Of a DNA stretch of 58,207 nucleotides, positions 16,802-40,152 are shown one piece after another (the first letter of the stretch is position 1; every line of letters begins with the position of its first letter). Under the pieces are notes generated by a model. That model searched no databases, had not been told where the DNA came from, and saw nothing but the letters and a program-made list of their open reading frames with translations. Location of the stretch: positions 1-58,207 of the IMG/VR virus record IMGVR_UViG_3300029267_000807. The stretch is one strand, 5' to 3'. Made by a program: the position numbers and the translations under genes. This DNA comes from a virus.

Positions 16802-18564
16802 AGTATCGTCGGCTGACAGGAAGGCGGCGGGCGGCTTATGGCAAGTCGATCGATAGGATCGCGACGAAATACGAACCCGCGTTCGCAAAGTCCGCGACCG
16901 AAGCGTTCGAAGCCGATCGGCGCGCTGTTCTGGCGGCGGTTTCCAAAGCAAAGGCGGACGCATTCGCCCAGAAGCAAAGCGTAAACTATGAACAGATCAA
17001 GATCGACTGGGACGATTACTTCCGGATTCAGGGCGAAGCGGGGATCAACTGGCGGAAATCGTTCATGCCCCAGGTCCGGGCGCTGTTTACGGACGTTGCA
17101 GACTTTCAGGCGGCGGCGCTGGGCATGCGGTTCGACGTGGCGAACATGCTGGCTTCCGAATGGGTTCAACAGTATCACATGGTCTTTGCCCAGCCAGCTA
17201 TGGACACAACGATCGCGGACCTTCAGAGCCTGATCGCCCAGGCGCAAAACAACGGCTGGACGATCGACGAAATATCGAAGCAGATCGACGCGACGTTCGA
17301 CTATTACTTGATCGGGGAAGAAGCCGGGAAAATCTGGCGCGAAATCATGACCGATCAAGAATTCCAGTGGTTCTTTGATCGGAAGCCGCGACCCCGGCGC
17401 GACTTGATCGCGCGGACCGAAACCATGCGGGCGTCGAATGCCGGGACGTATAACCTGTATATGGAAAGCGGCGAAGTCGAACTGAAGGAATGGTTGGCGG
17501 CACATGACAGGCGAACCCGGGACACACATGTCCAGGCGGACGCGACGTATCGCGAAGGCGGGTCGATCGGTCCGATTCCCATGAATGAACCCTTTATCGT
17601 CGGCGGGTTCCAAATGATGTATCCCCTTGACGGGTCCATGGGCGCGGACATTCGGGAAATGGCGAACTGTCGCTGTACTATGGCCCCAGTTCTTTACGAA
17701 TTCGAAGAAGAGGAACCCCAGCCGGAACAGGTCAGTCAACCGACATTCGAAGAGGTCCGGGACAGTCTGGCGCGGATTCGACAGGTTTCGACCGAAGTCA
17801 TCGGGGACCTTACGCGCGAACTTGAAGAATTGCGCGCGCGATCGAATGCGCGATATGACGAATGGATTCAGGGGGAACAGGCGGGCTTTTCGGAAGGACT
17901 TCGCGGCATTCTGAAGGATAATTACCTTCAGGCTTCCCAGGAAGCTTCAGCCGTCTGGACGCGTCTTCAGGAAGTTCGAAAGATGGCAAAGGAACAAATG
18001 CATGACGCGATTCGGATCCCGGCGGATCAGCGATCGGACTTTGAATTCACAACCCGAATTCGGAAGGCGGATCATCGGCGAACCCGGGTTCAGACGGTGG
18101 CGGAATGGCTGAACACAGTTGTTTCAAGGGACGTTCAGCCGGACCGGGTTACAGTGTATAATACGACGGACGATCGCGCATTTCACATGGGCGGCGGAAA
18201 GAAGTCCGGGATCCATATTTCGAAACATGCTGGGGAAACGACGATCGCGCATGAATGGGGTCATCGGATCGAATACGATAACCCGGACATTCAGGAAAAG
18301 CGGGCGAAGTTCTACGAACGACGAACCGCGGGCGAAGCCGAAGAAAGGCTAAAAGACGTTACAAGCCTGAATTACGACGACTGGGAAGTCACGAAGAAAG
18401 ACGACTTCATTGATCCTTATATCGGGAAGGTTTATCGCGGGCGCGCATCGTCTTCAGAAGTGATCAGCATGGGCATACAGTATCTTTATGACGATCCGGC
18501 GGAATTCGCGGAAAAGGACCCGGACATGTTCGACTTTGTTTTAGGCGTAATCAGGGGACAATGA
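16792..18564 (+). CDS. MuF-like head protein fused to HEWGH metallopeptidase, reached by -1 frameshift
   Basis: The open frame from 16792 codes for 590 residues, with the first usable ATG only at 17065 (499 residues). The N-terminal part lost with that start is clearly coding. Residues about 95-300 carry a MuF-type minor head region (HDRRTRDTHVQADATYREGG, ADIREMANCRCTMAP near the end). After an acidic linker and coiled coil, the last 180 residues contain TTIAHEWGHRIEY, a HExxH zinc-peptidase motif. A later SSSEVISMGIQYLYDDP could give the third ligand. MuF proteins are packed in the head in small numbers, so the enzyme may act inside the capsid or be injected into the host. Fusions of MuF to toxins or enzymes are known. 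Confidence 0.8.
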   Translation, partial: RRLKYRRLTGRRRAAYGKSIDRIATKYEPAFAKSATEAFEADRRAVLAAVSKAKADAFAQKQSVNYEQIKIDWDDYFRIQGEAGINWRKSFMPQVRALFTDVADFQAAALGMRFDVANMLASEWVQQYHMVFAQPAMDTTIADLQSLIAQAQNNGWTIDEISKQIDATFDYYLIGEEAGKIWREIMTDQEFQWFFDRKPRPRRDLIARTETMRASNAGTYNLYMESGEVELKEWLAAHDRRTRDTHVQADATYREGGSIGPIPMNEPFIVGGFQMMYPLDGSMGADIREMANCRCTMAPVLYEFEEEEPQPEQVSQPTFEEVRDSLARIRQVSTEVIGDLTRELEELRARSNARYDEWIQGEQAGFSEGLRGILKDNYLQASQEASAVWTRLQEVRKMAKEQMHDAIRIPADQRSDFEFTTRIRKADHRRTRVQTVAEWLNTVVSRDVQPDRVTVYNTTDDRAFHMGGGKKSGIHISKHAGETTIAHEWGHRIEYDNPDIQEKRAKFYERRTAGEAEERLKDVTSLNYDDWEVTKKDDFIDPYIGKVYRGRASSSEVISMGIQYLYDDPAEFAEKDPDMFDFVLGVIRGQ

Positions 18565-20399: not shown

Positions 20400-21740
20400 A
20401 TGGCTGAACAAATGATGATCGTGGGCGATCGCGTCGACGAACTTCGGAACGAAGGTCAGAAGCTGATTCACGACGCGAAGGAAATCTTTCTGAACGAAAA
20501 GGCGGACGCGCAAGATCGGGAAAAGGCAACCCGCATGCTGGCGCGGGTCGACGAAATCAAGGGCGAAATCGACAGCCTTGTCCAGATCGCCGAATCGGAA
20601 CAGGCCCTTATGGGGACCGCGAAGGTCGAAAATCGCGGCGGCGATCGTCCGGCAAAGCAGATCGGTTCGCTGGGTCGGCTGTTGGTCGAAGTGTTCAACG
20701 CTGAATTTGGGCGCGGCAAGTCGGTTCACCCTGGGCTGAAGCGTTGGCGCGACGCGGAAGAACCCGCGGTCGACGAAACGAAGATCGGCTGGGTTGAACC
20801 CGGCGACAGCAAAGACCTTCTGGAATCCGTTGGCGCGTCCGGCGGATATCTTGTCCCAGTACAGCAAGGCGAAAGCCTGTTGGTTCACCCGGGCGGAACG
20901 GACAGCGTCGTTACCCCGCGGGCAACCGTGATCCCGATGCGGCGTCGACAGATCCAGCTTCCGGCGCTGAATCAGGGCGCGACGACAGCCGGACAGCCCC
21001 ACTGGTTTGGCGGGATCATCGCCAAATGGACCGAAGAAGCGGCTGAAAAGGACGAAACCCAGCCGTCCTTCAGGCGGATCAACCTGACCGCATTCAAGCT
21101 CGCTTTATATACTGAAGCGGGCGACGAATTGCTTATGGACAATGCCGTTTCGCTGGAAGCGTTCCTGAATTCGGCATTCGGCGGCGCGATCGACTGGTAT
21201 AAAGAACATGCCTATATCCAGGGGACGGGCGCTGGACAGCCACAGGGGATTATCCCCGCACCTGGGACGATCACGATTCCCCCGGCGGCGATCGGCGCGA
21301 TCGCGGTTTCGGACTTTGCGGACATGCTGGAAGCCTTTGTCGGGCGTTCCCCGATCTGGATGATGTCGCGACAGTGGATGTCTGACTTGATTCAGTTGAA
21401 CGGTCCGGCTGGGAATCCGTCCTATGTCTTCATGCCGTCGGCGCGCGACGGCGTCCCCAGTTCGCTGTTCGGGTATCCTGTTTTCTTCAGCGAACACATG
21501 CCGCAACCCGGCGAAGTGGGATCCGTGGCGCTTTGCGACTGGTCGAAATACCTGATCGGGGACCGACAGGCGGTTACGGTTGACGCTTCGAAGCACTTCC
21601 GGTTCCAGAACGACTTGACGGCATGGCGCGCTGTTTCTCGGGTTGGCGGGCGACCGTGGCTGGATCTTCCGTTGACGTACAGCGACGGAACGACCCAGGT
21701 TTCGCCGTTCGTGATCCTGGGAATTCACCCGACTTCATAA
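20400..21740 (+). CDS. Major capsid protein (HK97 fold)
   Basis: The 446 residues have an N-terminal, helical and charged delta/scaffold-like region to about residue 95, expected to be cut off by the protease. The HK97 core follows with GASGGYLVPVQQGESLL, IQLPALNQ, a TEEAAEKDETQPSFRRINLTAFKLALYTEAGDELLMD spine segment and GYPVFFSEHMP near the C terminus. GGAG at the ribosome site differs from the AGAAAGG of most genes and fits high expression. It is the main shell protein. Confidence 0.94.
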   Translation: MAEQMMIVGDRVDELRNEGQKLIHDAKEIFLNEKADAQDREKATRMLARVDEIKGEIDSLVQIAESEQALMGTAKVENRGGDRPAKQIGSLGRLLVEVFNAEFGRGKSVHPGLKRWRDAEEPAVDETKIGWVEPGDSKDLLESVGASGGYLVPVQQGESLLVHPGGTDSVVTPRATVIPMRRRQIQLPALNQGATTAGQPHWFGGIIAKWTEEAAEKDETQPSFRRINLTAFKLALYTEAGDELLMDNAVSLEAFLNSAFGGAIDWYKEHAYIQGTGAGQPQGIIPAPGTITIPPAAIGAIAVSDFADMLEAFVGRSPIWMMSRQWMSDLIQLNGPAGNPSYVFMPSARDGVPSSLFGYPVFFSEHMPQPGEVGSVALCDWSKYLIGDRQAVTVDASKHFRFQNDLTAWRAVSRVGGRPWLDLPLTYSDGTTQVSPFVILGIHPTS

Positions 21741-21762
21741 GCTGACATAAGTCGGCTGTAGT

Positions 21763-21784
21763 GGGGGACCCGAAAGGGTCCCCC
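21763..21784 (+). promoter_or_regulatory. GNRA-loop hairpin before a ribosome site (plus-strand copy)
   Basis: GGGGGACCC/GGGTCCCCC with a GAAA loop. The stem is the same as in the minus-strand hairpins, and here it is oriented so that the GNRA loop is again in the sense RNA. It lies between the capsid stop and the AGGAG site of the next gene. It may protect or separate the strongly expressed capsid mRNA. Confidence 0.72.
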
Positions 21785-21802
21785 AGCATAGGAGAAACAA
21801 TC

Positions 21803-22240
21803 ATGGATTTCTGCGAACGTTTCAGCGAAGGTTATGAACTGTTGGCGGTCGAACATGCCGACAGCCTGACAGCGGGCGCGCATGCGTTGGGTCCCGTTAC
21901 CGCGGGCGATCACGATCGGTTCGTGCTAGTGATCGACGTCGGGGAAATGGCCCAGGGCGCGACCTTGGATGCTGTCATTCGCGAATGCACAAACGCGGCT
22001 GGGTCGAACATGGCGGATATCGTCGGGAAGGCGATTACCCAGCTTACCCAGGCGGGCGGCGACGGGAACGAAGTCGTTCTGATCGAACTTCGCGGGGAAG
22101 AACTGACCCCCGGTTACGACTTCATTTCCCCCCTGATCACGGTTGCGAACGATGCGGTCGAATACAGCGCGACCCTTTGGGGCTTTGTCGCTGGTTATGA
22201 ACCTGTCGCCACAACCCTGATCAGCGAAATCGTTGACTAG
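21803..22240 (+). CDS. Head-associated protein of unknown type (possible decoration)
   Basis: This 145-residue protein has an AGGAG site and follows the capsid gene, as decoration or head-stabilising proteins often do. The sequence is beta-rich with helices (LGPVTAGDHDRFVLVIDVGEMAQGATLD; YSATLWGFVAGYEPVATTLISEIVD). No exact family recognised. The GNRA hairpin just before it and the strong ribosome site suggest high expression. Confidence 0.65.
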   Translation: MDFCERFSEGYELLAVEHADSLTAGAHALGPVTAGDHDRFVLVIDVGEMAQGATLDAVIRECTNAAGSNMADIVGKAITQLTQAGGDGNEVVLIELRGEELTPGYDFISPLITVANDAVEYSATLWGFVAGYEPVATTLISEIVD

Positions 22241-22328: not shown

Positions 22329-23012
22329 ATGTCTGTCTTTGTCTGGGTCCGGCTTTTGACCGCGAAATACCTGAAAGACGAACATGCGCGAATGCAAAAG
22401 CATGAAGCCCGGGAATGGGTCCAGGTTGGCAAACATGACGCGCGCGTTATGCTTGCGGCTGGGGAATGCGAAATCCCCCGGAGTGATATTCGGAATCAGG
22501 TCGCGGACTGGGGAAATTCGGGCGTCGTAATCGTCGACCCGGCGGACCCGGAATCGGCAAAGAACTTTGTCGACGGAACATGGGACGGCATGGGCGTCCA
22601 GGCTGGGACCCTGTTTTCCGGGCGTCCCTATGGTTCAACCTTGTTCTGGGACCCGAACGTTTCGCTTCGCCGTGAACTTATGCCAGTCGGCTTTCATAGG
22701 GTTCAGCATGGTTGGCAAGTTGCATGTCCCCTATGGCGATATAAGGCCCTTGCGTTACACCTGGGATCAGACGACGAAAAGAAACGGACCCTGGACGTTG
22801 TCCAGGACTTGCGCGTCCCGGTCTATAACCCCGGGCTGTTGTATGTCGCGCGCTGTCCCCAAACGGACGAACTGTTCAGCGTCTGGGAAGAAGAGCATAA
22901 GGAAGGCGACGATCGGCGGCTGTCCTTTTTGCGGGCTGTTTTCCGAACCCGTCCGATCCTTTGTGCGCTTCCTGTTACCTGGACAGCGGGTCCCCGCTAT
23001 ACGGAAGAATAG
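22329..23012 (+). CDS. Hypothetical protein at the start of the glycan cassette
   Basis: This 227-residue protein has CCGAAAGGGAT before its ATG. Residues 1-75 include HEAREWVQVGKHDARVMLAAGECE and a WG/VIVDP stretch. The rest contains VQHGWQVACPLWRYKALALHLG. No catalytic DxD, P-loop or SAM motif is evident. It runs with the glycosyltransferase genes and is the first of them, so it could be an acceptor-binding or assembly protein; a head-tail adaptor cannot be excluded. Confidence 0.62.
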   Translation: MSVFVWVRLLTAKYLKDEHARMQKHEAREWVQVGKHDARVMLAAGECEIPRSDIRNQVADWGNSGVVIVDPADPESAKNFVDGTWDGMGVQAGTLFSGRPYGSTLFWDPNVSLRRELMPVGFHRVQHGWQVACPLWRYKALALHLGSDDEKKRTLDVVQDLRVPVYNPGLLYVARCPQTDELFSVWEEEHKEGDDRRLSFLRAVFRTRPILCALPVTWTAGPRYTEE

Positions 23013-23024
23013 AAAGGCTGAACC

Positions 23025-23636
23025 TTGACAACCCGCGGCGCGGTATATATCGCTTACGGGTCCCGGGCGCTTTCGGAATACTGGGAAGCGTCCCAAAGCC
23101 TGAAGAGACACATGCCGGATCTTCCGATCGCCATGATCGGATCTGATTCGGCGGAACTGGGGGACATGTCCGGCTTTACAGACGTCCAAAAATCGCGTTG
23201 GGCGAAAGTCAACCTGGACAAGCTGTCCCCCTTTGACCATACGCTATACCTGGACGCGGATACTCGGGTTTACGGGGACTTGTCGGCGGGCTTTGACATT
23301 CTGAACAAGGGCTGGGACATGGCGCTTGTCACGTCGGAAAATCAGGGCGCGCGGCTGTTGTGGCATGTGTCCCCGGAAGACAAAGAAGCGACCTTGAAGA
23401 AGGCGGGCGCTTACGACGTGCTACAAATACAATGCGGCGTCATGTTCTTCCGAAAGTCGATCCGGACCGTACAGTTCTTCAGTGTTTGGCGGCGCGAATG
23501 GCTTTGCTTTCGGGGACAGGATCAGGGCGCATTTCTTCGGGCGCTGATCGAAGCCCCCATTCGGCTTTGGCTTCTGGGCAAACCCTGGAATGGCGGCGGC
23601 ATTATCGCGCATTTGTTCGGGCGGGCGCGCGCATGA
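23025..23636 (+). CDS. GT8-like glycosyltransferase
   Basis: This 203-residue protein has a TTG start at 23025 with AGAAAGGCTG upstream. A GT-A fold is indicated by GAVYIAYGSRALSEYWEASQSLKRHMPDLPIAMIG, then KVNLDKLSPFDHTLYLDADTRV with the metal-binding DxD at residues about 78-80, and a later GQDQGAFLRAL (C-terminal aspartate/glutamine motif). The C-terminal half of the 556-residue protein downstream is a clear homologue. It would transfer a sugar from a nucleotide sugar to an unknown acceptor. Confidence 0.82.
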   Translation: MTTRGAVYIAYGSRALSEYWEASQSLKRHMPDLPIAMIGSDSAELGDMSGFTDVQKSRWAKVNLDKLSPFDHTLYLDADTRVYGDLSAGFDILNKGWDMALVTSENQGARLLWHVSPEDKEATLKKAGAYDVLQIQCGVMFFRKSIRTVQFFSVWRREWLCFRGQDQGAFLRALIEAPIRLWLLGKPWNGGGIIAHLFGRARA

Positions 23637-23779
23637 AGGCGGCGGATCCATTGTTGGCCTTGTTCGCTTTGTTGGTCGCGTTGTTAGGGTTGGCGACGGG
23701 CGGAAACGCGATCTTGTTCGGGTTCGTCTGGACATTGGTCTTTGGCTGGGCGATTATGGAACTGAAGGGACCGTCATGA
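23633..23779 (+). CDS. Small membrane protein within the glycan cassette
   Basis: This 48-residue protein has two hydrophobic stretches (residues about 7-20 and 24-42) and overlaps both neighbours by ATGA, so it is coupled to the two glycosyltransferase genes. It could anchor the enzymes at the membrane. Family unknown. Confidence 0.68.
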   Translation: MKAADPLLALFALLVALLGLATGGNAILFGFVWTLVFGWAIMELKGPS

Positions 23780-25446
23780 AGGTGCATATCGTATGCCGGA
23801 ACTGGACCGACGATCGGGTTATCCCCCGATTCGCGCGTTACCTTATGGACGCGTTCGGCTGGAAGGCGTCTGATCGTCCGGATCCGTCCGCGGATCTGAA
23901 TTACTGGCTGGGATACTTCGAATATCAGAAGGCCCCGCGGTTCGACGCGACCCCGACGGTCGCTTACCTGACACATCTTGAAGACGCGGACGCGGCGGAA
24001 TCGGCAAAGGTTCGGCTGTTCCATGCGGCGGCAAAGAATTCAACCCTTCGCGTCTGTATGAACGAACAGACAAGGGCGCTCATTGAACCCCTTTACGGGA
24101 AGACGTTTGTTTTCCCCCTTCCCCTGGAAACCGATCGCTTTGTCATTGTCCCCCAGCCCAGCGGAACGCTTCCGGTCGCGGGCTTTTCCGGCTTCCGATA
24201 CAAAAGCGGGCGCAAGGGGGAAGAACTGGCTTCGGCGCTTGTCCGGGACTTTCAGGGGGAAGCCCAGTTCAAGGCGTCCGGTCGCGGTTGGCCTTGCCCC
24301 ACAAAGAAATACACCTGGGACGGAATGCCAGCATTTTATCAGTCCCTGAACGTCTTTGTCTGTACGTCGACGGTCGAAGGCGGACCCATGACAACCCTGG
24401 AAGCCTTATCATGCGGCGTCCCGGTTGTGATCCCGGTTGGGGTTGGGATCCATGACAACATTCCCGACGTCCATGGGATATATCGCTATACCGCGGGCGA
24501 TTACAAAAGCCTGAAGCGGGCATTCGGGAAGGCTCTGGGCGGCTTCGATACGGTCGACCGGGAAGCCCTTCGGGAAGCGACAAAGCCGCATGCGGTCGAA
24601 GCCTGGGTCGACGCGAACCGGGAAGCATTCGAAGGGTTCCTTCATGACAAGCCCCAGCTTCAGGCGATCGATTCGTCCGATGGGCGGCGCGGGATCTACA
24701 TGGTCGCGTTTGGGGACCCAGCCCGGGACGCGGCAAAGATCGCGATCAAGACGATCCGGGCGAATCTTCCCGGGATCCCGGTCGCGTTATGTTCAGATCG
24801 GAAGCTGGGTCCGGAACATATCCTGATCAAGCAACCGGACAAAGATATAGGCGGGCGGATCGCAAAGCTGAAGGCTTACGACTTTGCCCCGGCGGAATGG
24901 GAATCGGTCCTATACCTGGATGCGGACATTGAAGTCGTTCATGCCGACGTCGAACAGTATTTCCGATGGCTTGACATGGGCTGGGAATTCATAATCTGCA
25001 AAGACGCGCATCTTCATGATACCCTGGACGATTTCCAAAGGTCGAACAATCGCGAAGAATACGTGAAGACGATCCAGAAGATCGGGACCGCGGAAAGTCT
25101 TCAGATCAACGGTGGGGTTTGGGGATTCCGGCGCTGTCGGGCGGCGAAGGCGTTCATGGACCGATGGTTCGACGAATGGAACAAATATCAGGGACGCGAT
25201 CAGGGCGCTTTGATCCGGGCGCTATACTCTGATCCGATCCGGGTCCTATGGCTGGGGAACGAATGGAATACCCTGATCACCCTGAAGGGAAAGGAATATC
25301 CCCCCGGGAAGAAGGGATCGGCGGGCGTCCTTCACTTTGTTGGGCGGGCGCGGCGCTGGACCGGACAGGTCCCGGAAGGATACGGACTGACCGACAAGGT
25401 CGCATGGGACATGGTCGACGATTACATGAGAAAGCATGGACAGTGA
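23776..25446 (+). CDS. Two-domain glycosyltransferase (GT-B plus GT8-like GT-A)
   Basis: This is a 556-residue fusion. The N-terminal half resembles GT4-type enzymes of the GT-B fold: VHIVCRNWTDDRVIPRFARYL at the start and STVEGGPMTTLEALSCGVPVV near residues 197-217, a typical sugar-nucleotide-binding region. Residues about 295-556 form a GT8-like domain with GIYMVAFGDPARDAAKIAIKTI, VLYLDADIEV (DxD near 380) and GRDQGALIRAL. Two successive sugars may be added by one chain. It starts by ATGA overlap. It is unusually large for a phage glycosyltransferase. Confidence 0.85.
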   Translation: MKVHIVCRNWTDDRVIPRFARYLMDAFGWKASDRPDPSADLNYWLGYFEYQKAPRFDATPTVAYLTHLEDADAAESAKVRLFHAAAKNSTLRVCMNEQTRALIEPLYGKTFVFPLPLETDRFVIVPQPSGTLPVAGFSGFRYKSGRKGEELASALVRDFQGEAQFKASGRGWPCPTKKYTWDGMPAFYQSLNVFVCTSTVEGGPMTTLEALSCGVPVVIPVGVGIHDNIPDVHGIYRYTAGDYKSLKRAFGKALGGFDTVDREALREATKPHAVEAWVDANREAFEGFLHDKPQLQAIDSSDGRRGIYMVAFGDPARDAAKIAIKTIRANLPGIPVALCSDRKLGPEHILIKQPDKDIGGRIAKLKAYDFAPAEWESVLYLDADIEVVHADVEQYFRWLDMGWEFIICKDAHLHDTLDDFQRSNNREEYVKTIQKIGTAESLQINGGVWGFRRCRAAKAFMDRWFDEWNKYQGRDQGALIRALYSDPIRVLWLGNEWNTLITLKGKEYPPGKKGSAGVLHFVGRARRWTGQVPEGYGLTDKVAWDMVDDYMRKHGQ

Positions 25447-25634
25447 ACGCGCGCGCGCGGGCGGCGGAAATCGTAAACGATCTTTGTCAACGGCTGGGCT
25501 TGCGATACGATCGCGATATCGAACAGGTCGAAGCCCGAATCGCGGAACACTTGGCGCGGGCATACAGAAAGGGCATACATGAATCTGAACCTGGGCGCGG
25601 GGAACCGAATCCTGGACGATTCGATCAACCATGA
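25443..25634 (+). CDS. Small hypothetical protein (overlapping)
   Basis: This 63-residue frame has a GTG start at 25443 overlapping the previous stop as GTGA. It is helical (ARARAAEIVNDLCQRLGLRYDRDIEQVEARIAEHLARAYRKG) and then overlaps the methyltransferase gene by 56 bases. The helix pattern looks real; the tail is doubtful. Function unknown. Confidence 0.55.
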   Translation: MNARARAAEIVNDLCQRLGLRYDRDIEQVEARIAEHLARAYRKGIHESEPGRGEPNPGRFDQP

Positions 25635-26049
25635 CATAACCCGACATTCGAAGGCGATCGACGTGGCATGGGACTTGAACGACCTACCATGGCCTTGGGA
25701 AGACGGACAGTTCGCGCGCGTTTACGCGTTTTCGGTCCTGGAACACCTTTACCATAATCTGCTTACGTCCATGGACGAAATCTGGCGGATTACGGAACTT
25801 GGCGGGCTTTGCGTCGTCAAGCTTCCTTTCTGGAAGGCGAACGTTACCTGGGAAGACTTGACGCACATTCACAAAGTCGGACCCGGGATCATGGACCAAC
25901 TGGACCCGACAACCCAGCGGGGAAGGGATTACGGCTTCTATACCCCGTACAAATGGCATGTCCTGAAGCGTTGGGCGAACAAAAAGAAGCGTCCGACGTC
26001 CTTTTACTGGAACCTGATCAAAAAGCCGGAAGGTTGGGACGGAACATGA
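25579..26049 (+). CDS. SAM-dependent methyltransferase of the glycan cassette
   Basis: This 156-residue protein starts MNLNLGAGNRILDDSINHD, an altered class I motif I (LGAG), and has VAWDLNDLPWPWEDGQFARVYAFSVLEHL, the motif II-IV region seen in methylases acting with glycosyltransferases and surface polysaccharides. It is short for the class. In this setting it likely methylates a sugar or a protein acceptor. GAAAGGGCATAC precedes the start. The substrate is inferred only from its neighbours. Confidence 0.78.
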   Translation: MNLNLGAGNRILDDSINHDITRHSKAIDVAWDLNDLPWPWEDGQFARVYAFSVLEHLYHNLLTSMDEIWRITELGGLCVVKLPFWKANVTWEDLTHIHKVGPGIMDQLDPTTQRGRDYGFYTPYKWHVLKRWANKKKRPTSFYWNLIKKPEGWDGT

Positions 26050-26744
26050 AGGCGGTCATTGTCGCGACCCAGCGGTCGGGCGGGCTATACCTTGCGGGCT
26101 GTCTGTCGAACCATCGGGACATACACTGTCCCCGGGAAGAACCTCTTCGGCCCCAGGCGACATGGATTCAGCATATCGGGAAACGTCCGGTCCGGATCCT
26201 GGACCTTGTCCTAACAGAACCCTATTACAAGGTCGCGGCTTGTCGGCTGACCTATGATCAGGCACTACACCCGGGCGTCATGGAATACCTTGTCAATAAC
26301 GAAGTCAAGATCCTTCACTTGACGCGGGCGATTATGCCAACTGTGACAAGCGTCCTTCTGGCGAAACAGGAAATCCGGGACGGGGTTCCGCGGCATGTCT
26401 TTGACGGGTCCTTTGTGGACAATGAAGTCCTGGACGCGACCCCGGCGGACGTTGCCAACCGGATCAAGCGGCTGAACCAACAGCGGCGCGCGTTCCTTCG
26501 CGGCGTACAACAGAACTGCGAAATTCTTGAAGTCCGATACGAAGACATAACCCAACAGGCGAATGGATATATTCCCCTGGGGGAAACAAAGCGGATCTGT
26601 CAATTCCTGGACGTCATTCGCCGTCCTTTGTACGCGGGCAACCGGAAAATGCACAAACGGGCGATCGAAACCTATTACACCAACTGGAAGGAAGTCGCGA
26701 AGATGCTGAAGCGGAATGACTGGGCGGATCTATGGCGCGAATAG
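26046..26744 (+). CDS. Sulfotransferase-like P-loop protein 1
   Basis: This 232-residue protein begins MKAVIVATQRSGGLYLAGCLSNHRDI. The TQRSGG segment matches the PAPS-binding loop (5'-phosphosulfate-binding motif) of sulfotransferases, and the spacing to SNH is typical. VKILHLTRAIMPTVTSVL fits the 3'-phosphate-binding strand and helix. ATGA overlap with the methyltransferase. It would move a sulfuryl group from PAPS to a carbohydrate hydroxyl. The Lys usually in the loop is absent, so activity is not assured. Confidence 0.75.
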   Translation: MKAVIVATQRSGGLYLAGCLSNHRDIHCPREEPLRPQATWIQHIGKRPVRILDLVLTEPYYKVAACRLTYDQALHPGVMEYLVNNEVKILHLTRAIMPTVTSVLLAKQEIRDGVPRHVFDGSFVDNEVLDATPADVANRIKRLNQQRRAFLRGVQQNCEILEVRYEDITQQANGYIPLGETKRICQFLDVIRRPLYAGNRKMHKRAIETYYTNWKEVAKMLKRNDWADLWRE

Positions 26745-27538
26745 ACAATGACGAAACCAAAAATATCGCGACCCCGTTTTTGATTCTGGCGCATGTCCGG
26801 ACAGGGGGGACCTTTTGCGCCCATGCGCTGTCGAATCACCCTTCGGTCTTTTGCGATCGCGGCGAAGTCATGCATCATGCGTCGATCTGGCGCAAGGCAA
26901 AGATCAAGCCGGATCGACTTATGGTCATGCTTTGGAATCAGACGGGTTATTTCGCGTCCGGCTTTCGGCTGATCTATCGACAGGCGTTCCATGAAAAAGT
27001 CTGGCCCACAGTCCAGAAGGTTCAGCCTAAAATCATACACCTTCAGCGGCGATCGCTTTTGCGACAGGCGTTGTCCTATGCTTACCAACAGCAAGTCCGC
27101 GGGCGCAACCTGGATTATCACCCGGTCCATAGCTTCAGGGAACGCGACGTCCCCCAGGCGACCATGGATCTTGATTATGCGGCATACGCTGTCGCGCGGA
27201 TCGCAAGCGAACGGAAGCGGGGACATGATCGGCTGAAGAAAGAATTCGACGGCGAATATATTGAAGTATTCTATGAAGACATGGTCCGCGGCGCGGCTGG
27301 GGGATCGGCCCAGGAAATGAATCCCCGGGAACGCGCGCGCGTCTGTCAGTTCCTGGGCGTCGACAATATCCCCCTTCCGGTCGACTTGAAACGCGAATTC
27401 CCCGTTCCCCTTTGGGAAATGTTCGGGAACTGGACGGCGCTTCGGGAACGGTTGGCGCGCGAAGGCTGGGGATACAGCGTCGAACAGGAAGAGAATTCAT
27501 GGACCCAGGTTGACGGGCGCTGGGTCCTGGGGGAATAA
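26732..27538 (+). CDS. Sulfotransferase-like P-loop protein 2
   Basis: This 268-residue protein has FLILAHVRTGGTFCAHALSNHPSVFCDRGE near its start, the Stf0-like arrangement of PAPS loop and following helix, and IIHLQRRSLLRQALSYAYQQQVRGR, the 3'-phosphate-binding part (KxLHLxRxNxLRQxxS style). It is paralogous in layout to the gene before it, with which it overlaps by 13 bases. Two sulfotransferases in one phage operon are very unusual. A sugar acceptor made by the glycosyltransferases upstream is the likely substrate. Confidence 0.78.
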   Translation: MARIDNDETKNIATPFLILAHVRTGGTFCAHALSNHPSVFCDRGEVMHHASIWRKAKIKPDRLMVMLWNQTGYFASGFRLIYRQAFHEKVWPTVQKVQPKIIHLQRRSLLRQALSYAYQQQVRGRNLDYHPVHSFRERDVPQATMDLDYAAYAVARIASERKRGHDRLKKEFDGEYIEVFYEDMVRGAAGGSAQEMNPRERARVCQFLGVDNIPLPVDLKREFPVPLWEMFGNWTALRERLAREGWGYSVEQEENSWTQVDGRWVLGE

Positions 27539-27613: not shown

Positions 27614-28069
27614 ATGGCGGACATTGTAAGGACCCAGGAACGCGGCGTTCCAAACGACATGGAATCGCGATATCGCGATCAGGAAGACGGGACGCATGCC
27701 CTTGTCGGGACGGCGCGAATTGAACGGCGAAAGGTTGTCGAATCAGTCACGATCCCGAACGGTCAGTCGCTGACAAGTCGCTGGATCGACATGCGATACT
27801 GGGCGGGCATGTGCATTCAGTTCCCGGAAGCTATGACCGGGACCCATTTCCAACTATACGGGCGCATGGAATCGACCGACGTCGAAGAGAAAGCGATCTG
27901 GGATACGCTGGGCGTCCTTCTGACCCAGCCGATCCAAAACGGGATCGTTATCGTGAACGCGGACATTTTCTCGGTCCCGTATGTCAAGATCCAGTCCTGT
28001 TCAGCGGCGGACGGAACCCCGCAAGCTGAAGCGGCTGAACGGACCCTGAAGGTTTCCAAAGCCCCATAG
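27614..28069 (+). CDS. Structural protein of unknown type
   Basis: This 151-residue, mostly beta-strand protein (IPNGQSLTSRWIDMRYWAGMCIQFPE; TGTHFQLYGRM; NGIVIVNADIFSVPYVKIQSC) looks like a jelly-roll virion protein. It is the first gene after the promoter at 27541 and directly precedes the LamG protein, so a head decoration or fibre-base role is possible. No exact family. GGGAAGG lies upstream of the start. Confidence 0.62.
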   Translation: MADIVRTQERGVPNDMESRYRDQEDGTHALVGTARIERRKVVESVTIPNGQSLTSRWIDMRYWAGMCIQFPEAMTGTHFQLYGRMESTDVEEKAIWDTLGVLLTQPIQNGIVIVNADIFSVPYVKIQSCSAADGTPQAEAAERTLKVSKAP

Positions 28070-28077
28070 GGGGATAT

Positions 28078-31000
28078 ATGGCGCGCGTTTCAAGGGACAG
28101 CCAGTTTCTACACCCGACAGGCGGACAGCCGACGTTCGTCTTTGATCCGGATCTTGTCACGTTTACACCCGCCATGGACAAGCGGATCAGCCCCGGCCCC
28201 TTCTATACAGCCCCTATCGTACAGGGCAAATGGGATGGGACGGGTACCCCTGGCGTTGTGACGTTCCCCCGTGGCGATCAGGTGGGGAATGCGACAGAAG
28301 TCAGGTATGCCAACTTTGATCCATATCAGGGATCCATCGTCTTTTGGATCACGCCAGAATGGGACGGGGATGATGGGATTGAGCATATAGTTTTGCGCCC
28401 AGATTTGGGTGCCATCCAAATTTATAAGACAACCTCAGGTTATCTTCGCGGTTTGTTTAGGACAAGCGGCGGGACGATTGTAGATGCCAATGTAGATGTG
28501 ACGGCTTGGGTCGCGGGGAACACGTACTGCATTGTGTTTAGCTGGGACGTAAAGAACACGGTAGACGGAACAAACTATGTAAGGTTATCCGTAAACAATG
28601 CCCATTCCTATGGTGGTCCAGAGGGCGACGGAACGGCAGAGGACACCGCATCTGTCATTAATTTTGGGCAGGGTTCGGATTTGAAGGCTTCTGATGCTAT
28701 CATCGAAGGCTTGACGGTCTATCGCCGTGTCCTGACCGATGACAACGGTTACGGCACCTTGCCCCAGACAGGCAACCCCTACCAACTACCGTCAACCGAC
28801 GAACTGACCGAAATCTACAATGCGGGATCAGGGCGTGATCCTACTGAAGTCACAGGCTCAGAAGATGTCTGCTTTTGTCTCCCTACCGACAGTACAGCCG
28901 AAGCCTTGACAACCGGAACAGGCGAAGCATGGTCTTGGCCTTGGGGCGATAACTTGCCAGACGTGCATGGCATGTGGGATGGCGGCTTGCCTGGAACGGA
29001 TTATGCGGTTGAATTCAACGGGACAAGTACCCTGATCAACTGCGGATCAGGCGCAACCCTGGATGATATACCCAGCGGTGGTGAGATTACGGTCGGGGTT
29101 TGGGTGCGGATTGATTCAGCGTCAACAGTTCCCCGTATTATCACGAAAGGCCCTTTTGGAAGCGGTTGGCAATTATGGGTAAACGCAAGCGGACAGGTGC
29201 GGTTTACTGTATGGTGCGCTGACGGTGCGGCGTCGTCATGGTACACGACGAAAAGCATAGATGATGGCAAATTTCATTATGTCGTTGGATATTACAACGA
29301 TACTACAAAGCGATCCTATACAGCAGTGGACGGGGACTGGTCTTCTCATGCAACAGGCTCAGGCGCATATGAGGCAGATGCGGCCTATGATCTTATCATA
29401 GGATCTAACGAAGCGGGCGGCGCCCAGGATCTTGACGGCGCTATCGCTTGGGCGGCTATTTGGGACGACGATCACCATACAGCCGGAACGGACTTTATAC
29501 CCCCACGTACAGCCCCAACCCCAGGCGGCAACCTAGTCGAATGCTGGCACATGGACGAAGGGACAGGCGCGACAGCGGCGGCACAAGTCACAAGCCCAGG
29601 GAACGATGGGACGATCACGGACGGCGCATGGTCATCGATCTGGGAACAGGACGGAAGCCCCGTCATTCCGTACAGCCTGGAGTTTGACGGGGCGGCAACG
29701 GTTGTCAACTGCGGATCGGCGGCTGACATTGACGACGTTCCCGATGGCGGCGCGATCACGGTTGAGGCATGGGTGCGTCTTGGTGCTTCTGGCGATCATA
29801 CAGTTCTGTCGAAACAGCCTTCCGGCGCTGGATGGGCGTTGTACTTTTCAGCGGCGGGCTTTTTGATTTTTCGGGCAGAGTATGATACGACGGACGCCTT
29901 TGTGTCCGTAGGGAACGATTGGGCGGACGGGCGGTATCATCATGTTGTGGGAACCTATGACGAAGGGGGAGATCGGCTAGCGCGGCTTTGGATAGATGGG
30001 CTTTTAGTTCGTACTGCGGCGGCGGCTTCTGCTGGCAATTATGTGTCCGATGCGGCGGCAAGTCTTTATATCGGTCGCAACGCTTATGGTGCTTCGGGGT
30101 TTTATGATGGCGGCATAGCTTGGGCGCGCATCTCTGACAGCATTCGCTACACTGGCACCTTCGTTCCCCCTGATCGCCTAAACCCGCCAGCGGTTGACGG
30201 GAACACCTTGCGTCAATTCAACTTCAGGGACGGCGCGGGTGCAACCCTGACCGATGCAACGGGAACGGCAAACGGCACGATCACCTTTGGGGATGGATAC
30301 TGGAACACAACCCCGGACATGGCGATCGACGAACCTGGGGCAAGGGTCTACAATGGCGGATACAATGTCGGCGTCGACGCGGCTGGGGAAGGGGTTTACA
30401 TTGAACAGGCGGTTACGGCTGGGGACGATTACGTCGTCTTTCCTGTTCTGGCGATCGATCAGGACGGGCGGGCGCGACCCAGGATTCGCATTCGGGACGT
30501 AACAGGCGCGGCGGACGTTGTAACATTCAACGGCCCTATGCTGTACGGGACGCATGCGGGCGCGAATAATCAGGCGACCTTACAGCCGACGTCCCCCCGA
30601 TGGATCGCGGACGCGTTGATCGGCGCGACGGTCTACAATATCACGGACGGGTCTTCGGCGACCATTACGGACAATAGCGAAGGCGTTGTCACGGCGAACC
30701 TTGCGGGCGGAACGGACAATGACTGGGATACAAACGATGTGTTCCTGATTCGCTTTGACGAACCCTACTGCTTACACCCATGGGCGGAAACGTTCTGTTT
30801 CAAGGTTCCGGCGGGTTGCGCGACCCTTCGGGTCTTTGTCGAAAACATAAACGCGGAAGGCGTAATACAGATTCACCAACTGCAAGTATTACCCAACCTG
30901 TTGGCGAATGGCGATCATGAAAGTCTACAGGGCGTCAACCCTGAATTGATCACGGGATGGGCAAATCTCAACCTTGATCCAGGCGATACGCAAGCGTCAA

Positions 31001-31881
31001 GCGGTGGCGGCGGGATCATACACTCGGGCGCAGAAGCGTTACAGTGGAATGTTGGCGCAAGCAACGAGTATATGGATGTGGACATAGCAGGGGAAGCGGC
31101 TGGGAAATTTTACATGGGCGGGCTGTGGTATTATGGGGATGGCTCAGAACCTGTGTTGGGCGGATCGACAAGTGGGGATAGAATGAGGTTTCAGGTTGGA
31201 ACAGGCAACGCCTTGGAACCTAGTGAGTTGGCACAATGGAAAGTGGTTTGGAATGTCTTTCAGTGTGTAGGGACACCCGTAAAATGCATGTTGTACGCGC
31301 ATAGCGGGGCGGCGGGCTCGCGATATACGGATGATACGTGGTTGATCGAACTTGATCCCGTTACCCTGACCGTTACCCCCGCAAGCGAAGCCAACAGCGC
31401 GGAAGCGACGGGGCTTCGGGTTGACGGGCGCGACGATTGTCAACAGCCGATCCCAGCCGGATACTTTGCCCCGTCCTTCGGTTCGATTATGTTCAACTGG
31501 ACCCCGCGGCATGATGACAGCGACGTGATCGACTGGGGGAACGCGACCCCGCATGTGTTCTGGGCGGCGGGTCCGATCGCAAATTACATTGAACTGTACT
31601 GGACCGCGGCGGACAACCTTCGGCTTGAAGTCCAGGTCGGCGGAATCGCATCTTCGGCGGACTGGGCGACAGGCGGCGGCGCGATTGTCGCGGGAACAAC
31701 CTATGCTGTCCGGGTCTTTTACACTGGGGTTTCAATATATCTTTATGTCGACGGCGTTTTGAGAATTACGGTTTCCCCCGCGGCTGGGATCGACTTTACG
31801 GGCGATATCCCCCAGGGCATGTTCTGGGGATCGAACGCAACCCCGGCCCAGCATGTCGACGCAACGTTCGCGCGACCATAG
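28078..31881 (+). CDS. Giant LamG/concanavalin-like virion protein
   Basis: The 1267 residues contain several copies of a LamG-type jelly roll. Two are easily aligned: YAVEFNGTSTLINCG (about residue 303) and YSLEFDGAATVVNCG (about 534), each followed by a GGEITVGVWVRI- or GGAITVEAWVRL-type strand and by a GxxYDLIIGSNEAGG or AASLYIGRNAYG strand. Others are seen near residues 80-220 and at the C terminus (1150-1267). LamG domains bind carbohydrate. The protein is probably a surface or fibre protein binding host glycans. Codon and trinucleotide use changes sharply at about 28190-30190 and 30950-31370 relative to the rest, which suggests imported domains. Confidence 0.82.
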   Translation: MARVSRDSQFLHPTGGQPTFVFDPDLVTFTPAMDKRISPGPFYTAPIVQGKWDGTGTPGVVTFPRGDQVGNATEVRYANFDPYQGSIVFWITPEWDGDDGIEHIVLRPDLGAIQIYKTTSGYLRGLFRTSGGTIVDANVDVTAWVAGNTYCIVFSWDVKNTVDGTNYVRLSVNNAHSYGGPEGDGTAEDTASVINFGQGSDLKASDAIIEGLTVYRRVLTDDNGYGTLPQTGNPYQLPSTDELTEIYNAGSGRDPTEVTGSEDVCFCLPTDSTAEALTTGTGEAWSWPWGDNLPDVHGMWDGGLPGTDYAVEFNGTSTLINCGSGATLDDIPSGGEITVGVWVRIDSASTVPRIITKGPFGSGWQLWVNASGQVRFTVWCADGAASSWYTTKSIDDGKFHYVVGYYNDTTKRSYTAVDGDWSSHATGSGAYEADAAYDLIIGSNEAGGAQDLDGAIAWAAIWDDDHHTAGTDFIPPRTAPTPGGNLVECWHMDEGTGATAAAQVTSPGNDGTITDGAWSSIWEQDGSPVIPYSLEFDGAATVVNCGSAADIDDVPDGGAITVEAWVRLGASGDHTVLSKQPSGAGWALYFSAAGFLIFRAEYDTTDAFVSVGNDWADGRYHHVVGTYDEGGDRLARLWIDGLLVRTAAAASAGNYVSDAAASLYIGRNAYGASGFYDGGIAWARISDSIRYTGTFVPPDRLNPPAVDGNTLRQFNFRDGAGATLTDATGTANGTITFGDGYWNTTPDMAIDEPGARVYNGGYNVGVDAAGEGVYIEQAVTAGDDYVVFPVLAIDQDGRARPRIRIRDVTGAADVVTFNGPMLYGTHAGANNQATLQPTSPRWIADALIGATVYNITDGSSATITDNSEGVVTANLAGGTDNDWDTNDVFLIRFDEPYCLHPWAETFCFKVPAGCATLRVFVENINAEGVIQIHQLQVLPNLLANGDHESLQGVNPELITGWANLNLDPGDTQASSGGGGIIHSGAEALQWNVGASNEYMDVDIAGEAAGKFYMGGLWYYGDGSEPVLGGSTSGDRMRFQVGTGNALEPSELAQWKVVWNVFQCVGTPVKCMLYAHSGAAGSRYTDDTWLIELDPVTLTVTPASEANSAEATGLRVDGRDDCQQPIPAGYFAPSFGSIMFNWTPRHDDSDVIDWGNATPHVFWAAGPIANYIELYWTAADNLRLEVQVGGIASSADWATGGGAIVAGTTYAVRVFYTGVSIYLYVDGVLRITVSPAAGIDFTGDIPQGMFWGSNATPAQHVDATFARP

Positions 31882-34324: not shown

Positions 34325-34786
34325 ATGCAAACAAGCGAAGCTGTAGCGTTGGGTTGCGGAAAGCTGGAAATTGACGTCGGTTGCAACGGCGTCTGGGTCG
34401 ACATTTCCGGTTCTTCGACGTCCCTGGACCCGATTTCCCAGGATCGCATGACAGGGGAAACGTACACCCTGGATGGCATGCGACCGATCATTCGCGGCGG
34501 AAAGAAACAGCCCTTTGAAGCCGTTGTGACGATCGTATATACGGAAGTCGCGGGCGAAGCCTGGGAAACGATCGAAGACGCATGGGACGCGGCGACTTGC
34601 GACCCCATGGTTTGCTTGCGTTGGTCCCCGAAAGGCGGCGCGGTTGGGGAAAAGCAGTATCGGATCCCGAATGGGATTCTGACCCAGATCACCTTCCCCA
34701 ACATGGACGCATCGGCGGGCGGACCGATCGCGGCGGGCTTTGTTGTTCGCGCGGGTTACGTCGAACCGACGGTCATTTCTAGCTAG
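34325..34786 (+). CDS. Major tail (tube) protein (predicted)
   Basis: The 153 residues are beta-rich, with many Gly and Thr residues: CGKLEIDVGCNGVWVDISGSSTSLDPISQDRMTGETYTLDGMRPIIRGGKKQPFEAVVTIVYTEVAG. A strong AGGAG site precedes the ATG. Position (before the frameshifting chaperone and tape measure) and size fit a siphovirus tail tube protein. Confidence 0.82.
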   Translation: MQTSEAVALGCGKLEIDVGCNGVWVDISGSSTSLDPISQDRMTGETYTLDGMRPIIRGGKKQPFEAVVTIVYTEVAGEAWETIEDAWDAATCDPMVCLRWSPKGGAVGEKQYRIPNGILTQITFPNMDASAGGPIAAGFVVRAGYVEPTVISS

Positions 34787-37644: not shown

Positions 37645-40152
37645 ATGGGATACTGGAAGATCGTCGTTCCCGAAGAAGGGTTCAACAAAGTTTTGTCCCC
37701 CAGCGGCGAAACGGGGAACATTCCGACATATTTCACGGCATACAACGGCGCGGTTGCGGTAAGTCGCTATTCCCTGGACGCCTTTCGTGGCTTTCAGTGT
37801 TATCAGATCAACACAAACGGCGTAAATCAGGGTGTTACGCTGAACCTGTCGACCCTTGCGAATGCCGATCACTATATTACCTTTGCGCTGAAGAATCCCC
37901 CCAGCGGAAACCCGGCGTCCCCGGGCGTTCAAGCATATATGAACGGCGCGGCACCAACATGGGAAAACCCACAACTGCTTTATACGGGCTTTGACGGCGA
38001 CTGGCATTTGTACGGGGTTCCCTATGTCGCGGCGAAAGCGAACGGCGCGGGCTTTCTGACCTTCCGGACAACTGTCGGCGGAAACATTTACTGGTATCTT
38101 GATCGGGTTCAGGTCGAACAAAAAAACTACTGGACAACGTACATGGACGGCGATCAGCCGGGTTGTGAATGGGAAGGCTTTGCCCATGCCAGTGTAACGC
38201 GGCGATCGGCGCTGTCCCGGGCTGGGGGAAGGGTCCGGGATCTGTCGGAAGTGTATCATTTCGATATCGAATCCATGGACGGCGCGGGGCTTCCCCCTAA
38301 CGAAATACGGTCCTTCGAATTCGCCCTTTCCCCAGGCGGCGACGTCCCCCAGATCCGCGATACCATGCGACCCTTTACCTTGACGGGCGTTTTGGAAGAC
38401 CCCGGGTCCTGGAACAGCCTGGAAGACGTCCGATTGATCCGAAGGGACTTGATCGAAATTCTGAAGGGCGATTCGTTCCCCCTGAACCTGGGACGTCCCC
38501 AGCCCGTTCGTTTATGGTACACTGAAGGATCGGATTATCCCCCGCGTTACATCGATCTTCATTATGAAGAAGGGCTTCGGTTGGCTGTCCATGGGACCTT
38601 CCCTTGTTCGGAAGTTCTGGCGCTTCGTTTTCTGGCTGAAGACCCCTATTTCTACGAAATAAAGGACTTTGCGCGATCGCTTTCCAGGCGCGAAACGCTG
38701 TTGAACACCCAGCTTGTCTATGGGCGGATCAAAGACGGCGAAATTTGGTCGAACCTGGGTCCCCCGAATGCCGCGGGGACCTATACGTCGATCAACGCGA
38801 TCGTCTTTGGCCCAGACGGGAAGCTTTATGTCGGCGGAAACTTTACCTTTTTTGACGCGATCCTGGGCGCTGATTACTTGTGTCGATATGATTTTCAAGC
38901 CGCAACATGGGACCTTGTCGGTCCGGCGGGTTCAGTAAATGGAATCGTCGACGCGTTGGCGGTCGGACCAAACGGGCTGATCTATATCGGCGGACAGTTC
39001 ACGAACCTGGGCGGCGCGAACGGGGACAGCTTTTCAAGCTATGACCCCGCGACAAATACTTATGCCGCGGTTGGCGACATAACAGGCGCGGGCGTTGCAA
39101 CGCTGACAACCGTAAACGATATAGACTTTGCCAGCAACGGCGACATTTGGATCGTCGGGAACTTTCTGAACGTTGGCGCGAACCCGTCCGCGGACTATAT
39201 CGCGCGATACGACTATTCTGTCGGCGGCTGGAATACCCCGTTCGGCGCGGCACCTGCGACCGCGACCATGTATGCTTGCGTTGTCGATTCCGACGACTAT
39301 GTCTGGGTTGCGGGATCCGCGGCGAACCTGGGCGGGCTGGGCGCGAACGGGAACTATATCGCGAAGATATTTCAGGGCGTCATGTATCAAGCGGTCCCGG
39401 GCGGCGCGAACAGCGTTGTAAATGCGTTGGAACTGGGGGACGATCAATCGGTTTATGCGGGCGGAAACTTCACGACGCTGGGCGGAAATACGGCATGTAA
39501 TTACATCGGGCGCATTCTGGCGGGTCAGGCGTTCGATCTGGATTCTGGAACAAACGGGCGGGTTTGGAACATTCACAAGGCCCCCGACGGTATGCTTTTT
39601 GTGTCCGGCGTCTTTTCGGCGGCGGGCGTTTTGTCTGTCGATCGGGCGGCGGCATGGAACGGGTTTACATGGGTCCATGTCCCGGTTTACCGCGGCGCGG
39701 GGACGGTCTACGAAATGACAACCGGAATTCCGGACCCGACAACTAGCGAACGTTATGATCTGTTTTTCGGCGGAACCCAGACGGGGACCGTTTACGCGGG
39801 TAGCAGAACGGCGATCACATATCCTGGGACCCAGGCGACAAGGCCCCTATTTCGTTTCTACGATCCAACAGGGAACGCGGACTTGTATCTTTTCCGGAAT
39901 GAAACGCTGGGCGCGGACCTTTACATGGACTATAGGGTCAGAAATGCCGAAGATTTCCGCGTCGATCTTCGACCCGGGAAAGTGTTAGTCTACAGCGAAT
40001 TTGCTGGAAGGAAACCCGGCGCGATCCTTCCCGGAAGCGATATCGAAGAGTTTAGAGTTATCCCCGGGGAAAACATAATCAGCATGTTTACCCCGCACTC
40101 TTCCGGGTCCCCCTTTATCAGCATGCCGATCTGCTATGGAAGTGTTGACTAA
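37645..40152 (+). CDS. Distal tail protein with inserted beta-propeller
   Basis: This is an 835-residue protein. The first 190 residues look like a carbohydrate-binding-like beta module. Residues about 190-350 (VRDLSEVYHFDIESMDGAGLPPNEIRSFEFALSPGGDVPQIRDTM and FPLNLGRPQPVRLWYTEG) fit a Dit-like distal tail ring protein. From about 370 to 690 there are six repeated blades with the signature YVGGNFTFF, YIGGQFTNLGG, WIVGNFLNVGA, WVAGSAANLGG, YAGGNFTTLGG and FVSGVFSAAGV, a kelch/Delta-60-like beta-propeller. It may bind receptor glycans. A final 120-residue beta domain (ending FVPGENIISMFT type) follows. An unusual size for a distal tail protein. Confidence 0.78.
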   Translation: MGYWKIVVPEEGFNKVLSPSGETGNIPTYFTAYNGAVAVSRYSLDAFRGFQCYQINTNGVNQGVTLNLSTLANADHYITFALKNPPSGNPASPGVQAYMNGAAPTWENPQLLYTGFDGDWHLYGVPYVAAKANGAGFLTFRTTVGGNIYWYLDRVQVEQKNYWTTYMDGDQPGCEWEGFAHASVTRRSALSRAGGRVRDLSEVYHFDIESMDGAGLPPNEIRSFEFALSPGGDVPQIRDTMRPFTLTGVLEDPGSWNSLEDVRLIRRDLIEILKGDSFPLNLGRPQPVRLWYTEGSDYPPRYIDLHYEEGLRLAVHGTFPCSEVLALRFLAEDPYFYEIKDFARSLSRRETLLNTQLVYGRIKDGEIWSNLGPPNAAGTYTSINAIVFGPDGKLYVGGNFTFFDAILGADYLCRYDFQAATWDLVGPAGSVNGIVDALAVGPNGLIYIGGQFTNLGGANGDSFSSYDPATNTYAAVGDITGAGVATLTTVNDIDFASNGDIWIVGNFLNVGANPSADYIARYDYSVGGWNTPFGAAPATATMYACVVDSDDYVWVAGSAANLGGLGANGNYIAKIFQGVMYQAVPGGANSVVNALELGDDQSVYAGGNFTTLGGNTACNYIGRILAGQAFDLDSGTNGRVWNIHKAPDGMLFVSGVFSAAGVLSVDRAAAWNGFTWVHVPVYRGAGTVYEMTTGIPDPTTSERYDLFFGGTQTGTVYAGSRTAITYPGTQATRPLFRFYDPTGNADLYLFRNETLGADLYMDYRVRNAEDFRVDLRPGKVLVYSEFAGRKPGAILPGSDIEEFRVIPGENIISMFTPHSSGSPFISMPICYGSVD

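Follow-up and report, generated by a model that had tools for sequence, protein, structure and literature searches.

A conserved phage locus behind the capsid gene with a probable role in glycosylation and sulfation of the virion

Why does a phage carry glycosyltransferases and sulfotransferases among its head genes? We addressed this question with a 58,207-base virus record (IMG/VR IMGVR_UViG_3300029267_000807, positions 1 to 58,207; hereafter the window). An initial annotation had described a cassette of overlapping or nearly touching genes: a GT8-like glycosyltransferase, a fusion of a GT-B and a GT8 enzyme, a tiny membrane protein, an S-adenosylmethionine (SAM) methyltransferase and two sulfotransferases. 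All these genes are present and tightly packed, and their coordinates hold. The reading that we favour, at a probability of roughly 0.6, is that the locus encodes a virion O-glycosylation and sulfation system which places a glycan on the C-terminal Ser or Thr of the capsid and tail-tube proteins.

Layout and conservation of the locus

Genes for a portal, a MuF-like head protein, a prohead protease and an HK97-type capsid protein lie upstream of the cassette region; a head-tail adaptor, a tail completion protein and a tape measure follow downstream. Between the capsid gene and the adaptor gene are a GT8-like glycosyltransferase, a GT4+GT8 fusion, a SAM methyltransferase and two sulfotransferases of the 3'-phosphoadenosine 5'-phosphosulfate (PAPS) type:

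20400-21740, plus strand: HK97-type major capsid protein (Pfam Phage_capsid, 133.7 bits), probable glycan acceptor through its C-terminal Ser (...ILGIHPTS)
21761-22240, plus strand: g21761, structural companion of the capsid protein, outside the enzyme set; present in cassette-free relatives too (PHROG 28483, unknown function)
22329-23012, plus strand: g22329, core gene 1, probable GT-A-fold pseudo-glycosyltransferase without DxD, with an N-terminal connector-like domain
23025-23636, plus strand: g23025, core gene 2, GT8-like glycosyltransferase, TTG start
23633-23779, plus strand: 48-residue hydrophobic open reading frame (ORF), lineage-specific, probably outside the machinery
23776-25446, plus strand: g23776, core gene 3, GT4 (GT-B) + GT8-like (GT-A) fusion glycosyltransferase
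25579-26049, plus strand: accessory class I SAM methyltransferase (Methyltransf_11, 22.0 bits, cutoff 21.2), with homologues in many cassettes
26046-26744, plus strand: accessory predicted PAPS-type sulfotransferase 1, TQRSGG loop (Sulfotransfer_3, 30.4 bits, cutoff 27)
26732-27538, plus strand: accessory predicted PAPS-type sulfotransferase 2, HVRTGG loop
32293-32940, plus strand: head-tail adaptor closing the slot (PHROG 442)

Starts and stops within the cassette overlap or lie at most 12 nucleotides apart, the sole exception being a gap of 133 nucleotides before 25579. Comparison with a close relative gave ratios of nonsynonymous to synonymous substitution rates (dN/dS) of 0.07-0.19 for all cassette enzymes (capsid gene 0.12), and the cassette genes are thus under purifying selection. 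Since dN/dS is low among close relatives and the gene order is also kept in far ones, the cassette is more than a chance arrangement. Recent foreign acquisition, judged by base composition, left no signal (G+C 56.9% in the cassette versus 56.5% overall). ORF 25436 is doubtful, because only nonsynonymous changes were observed in it.

A fixed position in two gene orders

A profile scan for the fusion glycosyltransferase yielded 80 loci, and hidden Markov profiles then mapped 92, some close relatives possibly being counted more than once. Two gene orders were found. Type A (47 loci) runs protease, capsid, g21761, g22329, GT8, GT4-GT8, accessory genes, adaptor; type B (45 loci) runs protease, capsid, GT4-GT8, accessory genes, g22329. 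Across both orders, a capsid protein or prohead protease was encoded upstream in 66 of the 75 contigs with at least 1.8 kb of upstream sequence; in the remaining 9 these proteins may have diverged. A reverse test was anchored on the capsid gene alone, using loci with 3 kb downstream. At least two core genes were present in 29 of 30 loci at 40% or more capsid identity, compared with 4 of 21 below 40%. Some cassette-free relatives have the adaptor 2.1-2.6 kb after the capsid gene, and there the slot is occupied by different small genes whose products are probably structural. Together, the capsid-anchored counts and the slot contents indicate that the core is a lineage trait seated in a slot of the head genes.

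The glycosyltransferase core is nearly fixed and the accessory genes vary across the 92 loci; this is the comparison among related phages that the initial annotation had proposed. By motif reading, which unlike profile searches was the basis of these names, we recognized O-methyltransferase-like (24 loci), GT2-like (14), GT4-like (8) and nucleotide-sugar dehydrogenase-like genes (7), and more rarely epimerase-like (5), acetyltransferase (2) and radical-SAM-like genes (2). A nucleotide search of the cassette against cultured phages gave no match, nor did tblastn searches of the same phages with the fusion glycosyltransferase, one g22329 homologue and three sulfotransferases. With g23025, tblastn returned only 22%-identical proteins of cyanophage ACG-2014f. 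Assigning hosts through matches to bacterial genomes, among the best of which Chloroflexota bins were common, was abandoned: the four contigs inspected look purely phage.

Such genes could also decorate a host polysaccharide or lipid-linked glycan and exclude other phages, in a manner resembling seroconversion. Phages are generally known to carry glycosyltransferases of this kind (see also PMC12619734), and the diverse, exchangeable glycan genes would suit that role. Against it stands the constant place of the locus in the late head module, downstream of the capsid gene in both gene orders, which is late for exclusion. The window cassette enzymes have no clear transmembrane segment, and the sole hydrophobic ORF is unconserved. 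A Gtr-type seroconversion cluster was rejected, as its marker, the GtrA flippase, was not found in the window.

The glycosyltransferase core

The two GT4 domains of the fusion protein exceed the Pfam gathering score (34.6 and 34.0 bits, cutoff 27). Its GT8 domain (19.0 bits) and g23025 (13.2 bits) stay below theirs (24.3), and we therefore call both GT8-like only. Residues invariant in the fusion are E201/E209 (EX7E), D382/D384 (DxD) and H520; DxD is kept in 64 of 64 fusions and in 60 of 62 g23025-type homologues. The fusion thus resembles known GT4 enzymes in its EX7E motif, and the GT8-like domains resemble GT8 in DxD and a C-terminal His. They differ from known GT8 enzymes in scoring below the Pfam cutoff, and in the collections searched the fusion and its DxD-less partner were seen only in this phage group.

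That partner is g22329, a core gene missing from the gene list of the initial annotation. It gave no family match in the initial family search, and a profile comparison linked it to the g23025 family (probability 97.9, E 3.7e-13). Its AlphaFold model (predicted local distance difference test score, pLDDT, 93) resembles GT-A glycosyltransferases at modest template modelling scores (TM-scores) of about 0.3-0.5. As the metal-binding DxD was found in none of 78 homologues, we named it a GT-A-fold pseudo-glycosyltransferase; by its sequence it is probably a conserved pseudo-enzyme. Locus L165 encodes the N-terminal domain of g22329 on its own, in an 88-residue protein immediately after g21761; this protein weakly matches DUF7302 (23.6 bits, cutoff 24.9) and a head-tail connector PHROG (E 1e-4). 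A similar domain precedes a GT8-like domain in L151.

The 48-residue membrane ORF (23633), counted as part of the cassette in the initial annotation, was rejected as a component of the machinery: it is unconserved, it carries a 13-nucleotide indel in one close relative, and in many relatives there is no space for it, since the GT8 stop codon overlaps the start of the fusion gene.

Some loci depart from the usual core. At L112:12364-13611 and L075:5305-7212, a g22329-like domain follows a methyltransferase-like domain in the same reading frame, and the two are probably fused. Three GT8-like genes replace the usual core behind the capsid companion gene in L163.

A candidate acceptor on the virion

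A virion target would imply a conserved acceptor on the virion, and for this reason we examined terminal residues. Among type A capsid proteins encoded beside the cassette, the last residue is Ser or Thr in 75 of 76, the single exception being Pro. On a capsid tree that excluded the 12 C-terminal residues, the final position changed 18 times, always between Ser and Thr except for the one Pro; for positions -2 to -5 the count was 31-35 changes, involving 9-13 residues. The window's own sequence prompted the same comparison for a second protein:

34325-34786, plus strand: putative tail-tube (major tail) protein, second probable acceptor, C-terminal Ser (...VISS); it precedes the tape measure, and its homologue in L113 matches major tail protein PHROGs

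Its type A homologues end in Ser or Thr in 15 of 15 cases. When the comparison was repeated in type B, where the tail-tube proteins belong to Pfam Phage_tail_2 (9e-18), the count was 21 of 21. Control genes have this ending mostly at 0-14% (g21761 8/78, protease 9/71, adaptor 0/24, fusion glycosyltransferase 0/71, g22329 family 5/222). Adaptors, neck proteins and chaperones mostly lack it; the type B tail terminator has it in 6 of 15.

Several observations weigh against the virion O-glycosylation reading. The type B head completion protein ends in Ser or Thr in 23 of 27 cases, so the ending may reflect something else. Among type B capsid proteins, five distinct ones end otherwise. Cassette-free metagenomic capsid proteins have it in 19 of 29 cases, and in 9 of 13 when restricted to contigs that extend 3 kb or more downstream. 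It also occurs in 2 of 11 capsid proteins of cultured relatives, those of HK75 and Journey, whose capsid and tail-tube proteins both end in Ser or Thr without a cassette. We know of no glycosylation in the HK97 group, of which HK75 is a member. The tail-tube identity of 34325 is based on position and weak profiles. Finally, no adenosine 5'-phosphosulfate (APS) kinase was found in the phage, which would have to take PAPS from its host.

A terminal Ser/Thr as a unique mark of cassette phages was therefore rejected, since HK75, Journey and many cassette-free metagenomic phages share it. Cassette-positive phages still exceed cassette-free ones in its rate (Fisher P=6e-6 for all, 1e-3 for the subset with at least 3 kb downstream, both uncorrected for relatedness). 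By these comparisons the terminal residue appears more constrained in cassette phages, which is compatible with an acceptor role and not diagnostic of it. We consider it rather probable that the C-terminal Ser/Thr is the glycan acceptor on the virion proteins.

The ending might instead be a structural habit, with the glycan placed at internal sites or on another virion protein, such as the g21761 companion, a tail fibre or the following:

28078-31881, plus strand: 1267-residue protein with three Laminin_G_3 (LamG) domain matches, probably a virion surface protein, downstream flank

This explanation gains from the Ser/Thr ending of cassette-free phages and HK75 and from the place of the LamG protein directly after the cassette. 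It loses from the constraint on the terminal residue, far stronger than on its neighbours in cassette-positive phages, and from the excess over cassette-free relatives; moreover, the LamG protein is outside the conserved set. We regard it as rather improbable.

The terminal Ser/Thr pattern of the capsid and tail-tube proteins also bears on the host-surface explanation. The initial annotation had offered virion and host surface as alternative targets; the former is the more probable, because of the unvarying location downstream of the capsid gene in either gene order, the head-protein-like domain fused to the pseudo-glycosyltransferase, and the conserved C-terminal Ser/Thr on both proteins. Host-surface modification is thus unlikely, and virion glycosylation is, in our judgement with good confidence, the best explanation of the locus.

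The type B head completion proteins (Phage_HCP; L034:16234-16587 and homologues) often end in GS and are a possible third acceptor.

Two sulfotransferases of separate descent

Sulfotransferase 2 scores below the Sulfotransfer_3 cutoff (19.9 bits, cutoff 27) and is a paralogue of sulfotransferase 1 (29% identity, E 9e-19); the Sulfotransfer_3 profile matches 18 of 21 sulfotransferase members at E below 0.01. In the 5'-phosphosulfate loop, R23 and G25 are invariant in 21 homologues and align with Stf0 and polyketide synthase (PKS) sulfotransferases. At the 3'-phosphate site, aligned with Stf0, R106 is invariant and Ser is present in both window proteins. The Arg and Ser of this site lie within KILHLTRAIMPTVTS in sulfotransferase 1; sulfotransferase 2 has the HVRTGG loop and KIIHLQRRSLLRQALS. 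Its model (pLDDT 89) finds its best PDB match in the trehalose sulfotransferase Stf0, and the sulfotransferase model also matches tyrosylprotein and heparan 3-O-sulfotransferases. On motifs and model, both window proteins are predicted to be PAPS-type sulfotransferases. Both PAPS-binding motifs align with Stf0 (PDB 1tex), the best structural match, at an identity of only about 15%, and the substrate is not predictable from it.

The checks proposed in the initial annotation, among them Pfam searches and structure prediction for the PAPS pocket, largely agree with its assignments: GT4, Methyltransf_11 and Sulfotransfer_3 (26046) pass their cutoffs, GT8 and 26732 fall below, and paralogy, motifs and the match to PAPS enzymes point the same way. 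We are highly confident that the enzyme assignments are firm. The earlier idea of a cassette that serves a methylated and sulfated glycan and is tied to the virion genes is also supported.

Of the 92 loci, 27 carry sulfotransferases. A pair, of which the initial annotation knew no well-described phage example beside bifunctional glycosyltransferases, is found in four: the window, L095, L099 and L016, all of the same phage group. The sulfotransferase tree places 26046 in a clade with L028, L102 and L103, and 26732 with L030, L018 and L091; each groups with type B phages at a support of 100/99 or better. Tandem duplication was rejected as the origin of the pair, as these are separate clades, each nearest the other gene order, which argues for modular assembly or exchange.

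Sulfotransfer_3 proteins have been described in OM43 and cyanobacterial phages, where their role was called unclear (PMC10580990). The genes here share that Pfam family and differ in lying within a conserved glycan locus behind the capsid gene. Phage sulfotransferases thereby gain a concrete, testable job.

Glycosyltransferases might also sugar modified bases as part of DNA hypermodification, and virus glycosyltransferases able to glycosylate DNA are cited in PMC12619734. Sulfotransferases and a post-capsid position do not fit such a role. We rejected a DNA glycosylation system, which seems very improbable: the window gave no match to a base-oxidising or hydroxymethylating enzyme family, with neither a TET/JBP oxygenase (Tet_JBP) nor a thymidylate-synthase homologue.

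Proposed mechanism

For glycosylation of the virion, we infer the acceptor site, the division of labour and the sulfated product as follows. Late in infection, the three glycosyltransferase-fold proteins would be made alongside the capsid. The pseudo-glycosyltransferase g22329, which carries the head-protein-like domain, would serve as an adaptor or confer specificity. With the GT8-like g23025 and the GT4-GT8 fusion, a sugar would be linked to the last Ser or Thr of both the capsid protein and the tail-tube protein and then lengthened; the methyltransferase and the two sulfotransferases would cap the glycan using host SAM and PAPS. The resulting particle would bear an anionic, methylated, sulfated coat, of which the benefit is probably masking or control of adsorption.

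More tentatively, a dead GT8-like protein with a connector-like domain could bring two active glycosyltransferases to a shared Ser/Thr signal, and exchangeable caps including sulfate could give each phage its own anionic coat, throughout a widespread uncultured family.

Comparison with mycobacteriophages

Virion glycosylation is already known. Mycobacteriophage glycans sit at the C-termini of capsid and tail-tube proteins according to PMC12619734 (citing Freeman 2023), and Che8 is named as bearing glycans on its capsid protein (PMC11256854). In Che8, we found Ser at the end of the capsid protein and of the tail-tube protein (NKTGS and YSDGS). Mycobacteriophages such as Che8 and the present group share phage-encoded glycosyltransferases, and the Che8 endings resemble the terminal Ser/Thr seen here, which is compatible with a C-terminal glycan and not diagnostic of it. 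In Maravista, a relative of Che8, the glycosyltransferase genes lie near the 3' end of the genome (PMC11256854), whereas here they follow the capsid gene. No report of phage sulfotransferases or of a head-domain pseudo-glycosyltransferase in mycobacteriophage-type glycosylation sets was found. A capsid-linked, sulfating locus with a pseudo-glycosyltransferase is new within the collections and literature searched. If our reading is true, virion glycosylation would not be peculiar to mycobacteriophages: a broad group of uncultured phages would have it as a fixed trait, with sulfated coats. The final residue of the capsid and tail-tube proteins could then be of help in recognising glycosylated phages by their sequence.

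Other features of the window

One further gene lies in the downstream flank:

27614-28069, plus strand: protein with no assigned function, with homologues in L015 and L104

Between the end of sulfotransferase 2 (27538) and this gene (27614), the close relative L016 has about 770 extra bases. The LamG protein (28078-31881) shows only about 72% identity in close relatives that share about 97% identity across their cassettes, which indicates fast divergence. Similarly, the MuF-like head morphogenesis protein (17065-18564) is only 56% identical between close relatives with 99% identical portals; its C-terminal region contains HEWGH, a zinc-protease-like motif. An MT-A70 family adenine methyltransferase is encoded on the minus strand at 54361-55083, and the tail-region protein at 37645-40152 has a Rax2/kelch-like beta-propeller.

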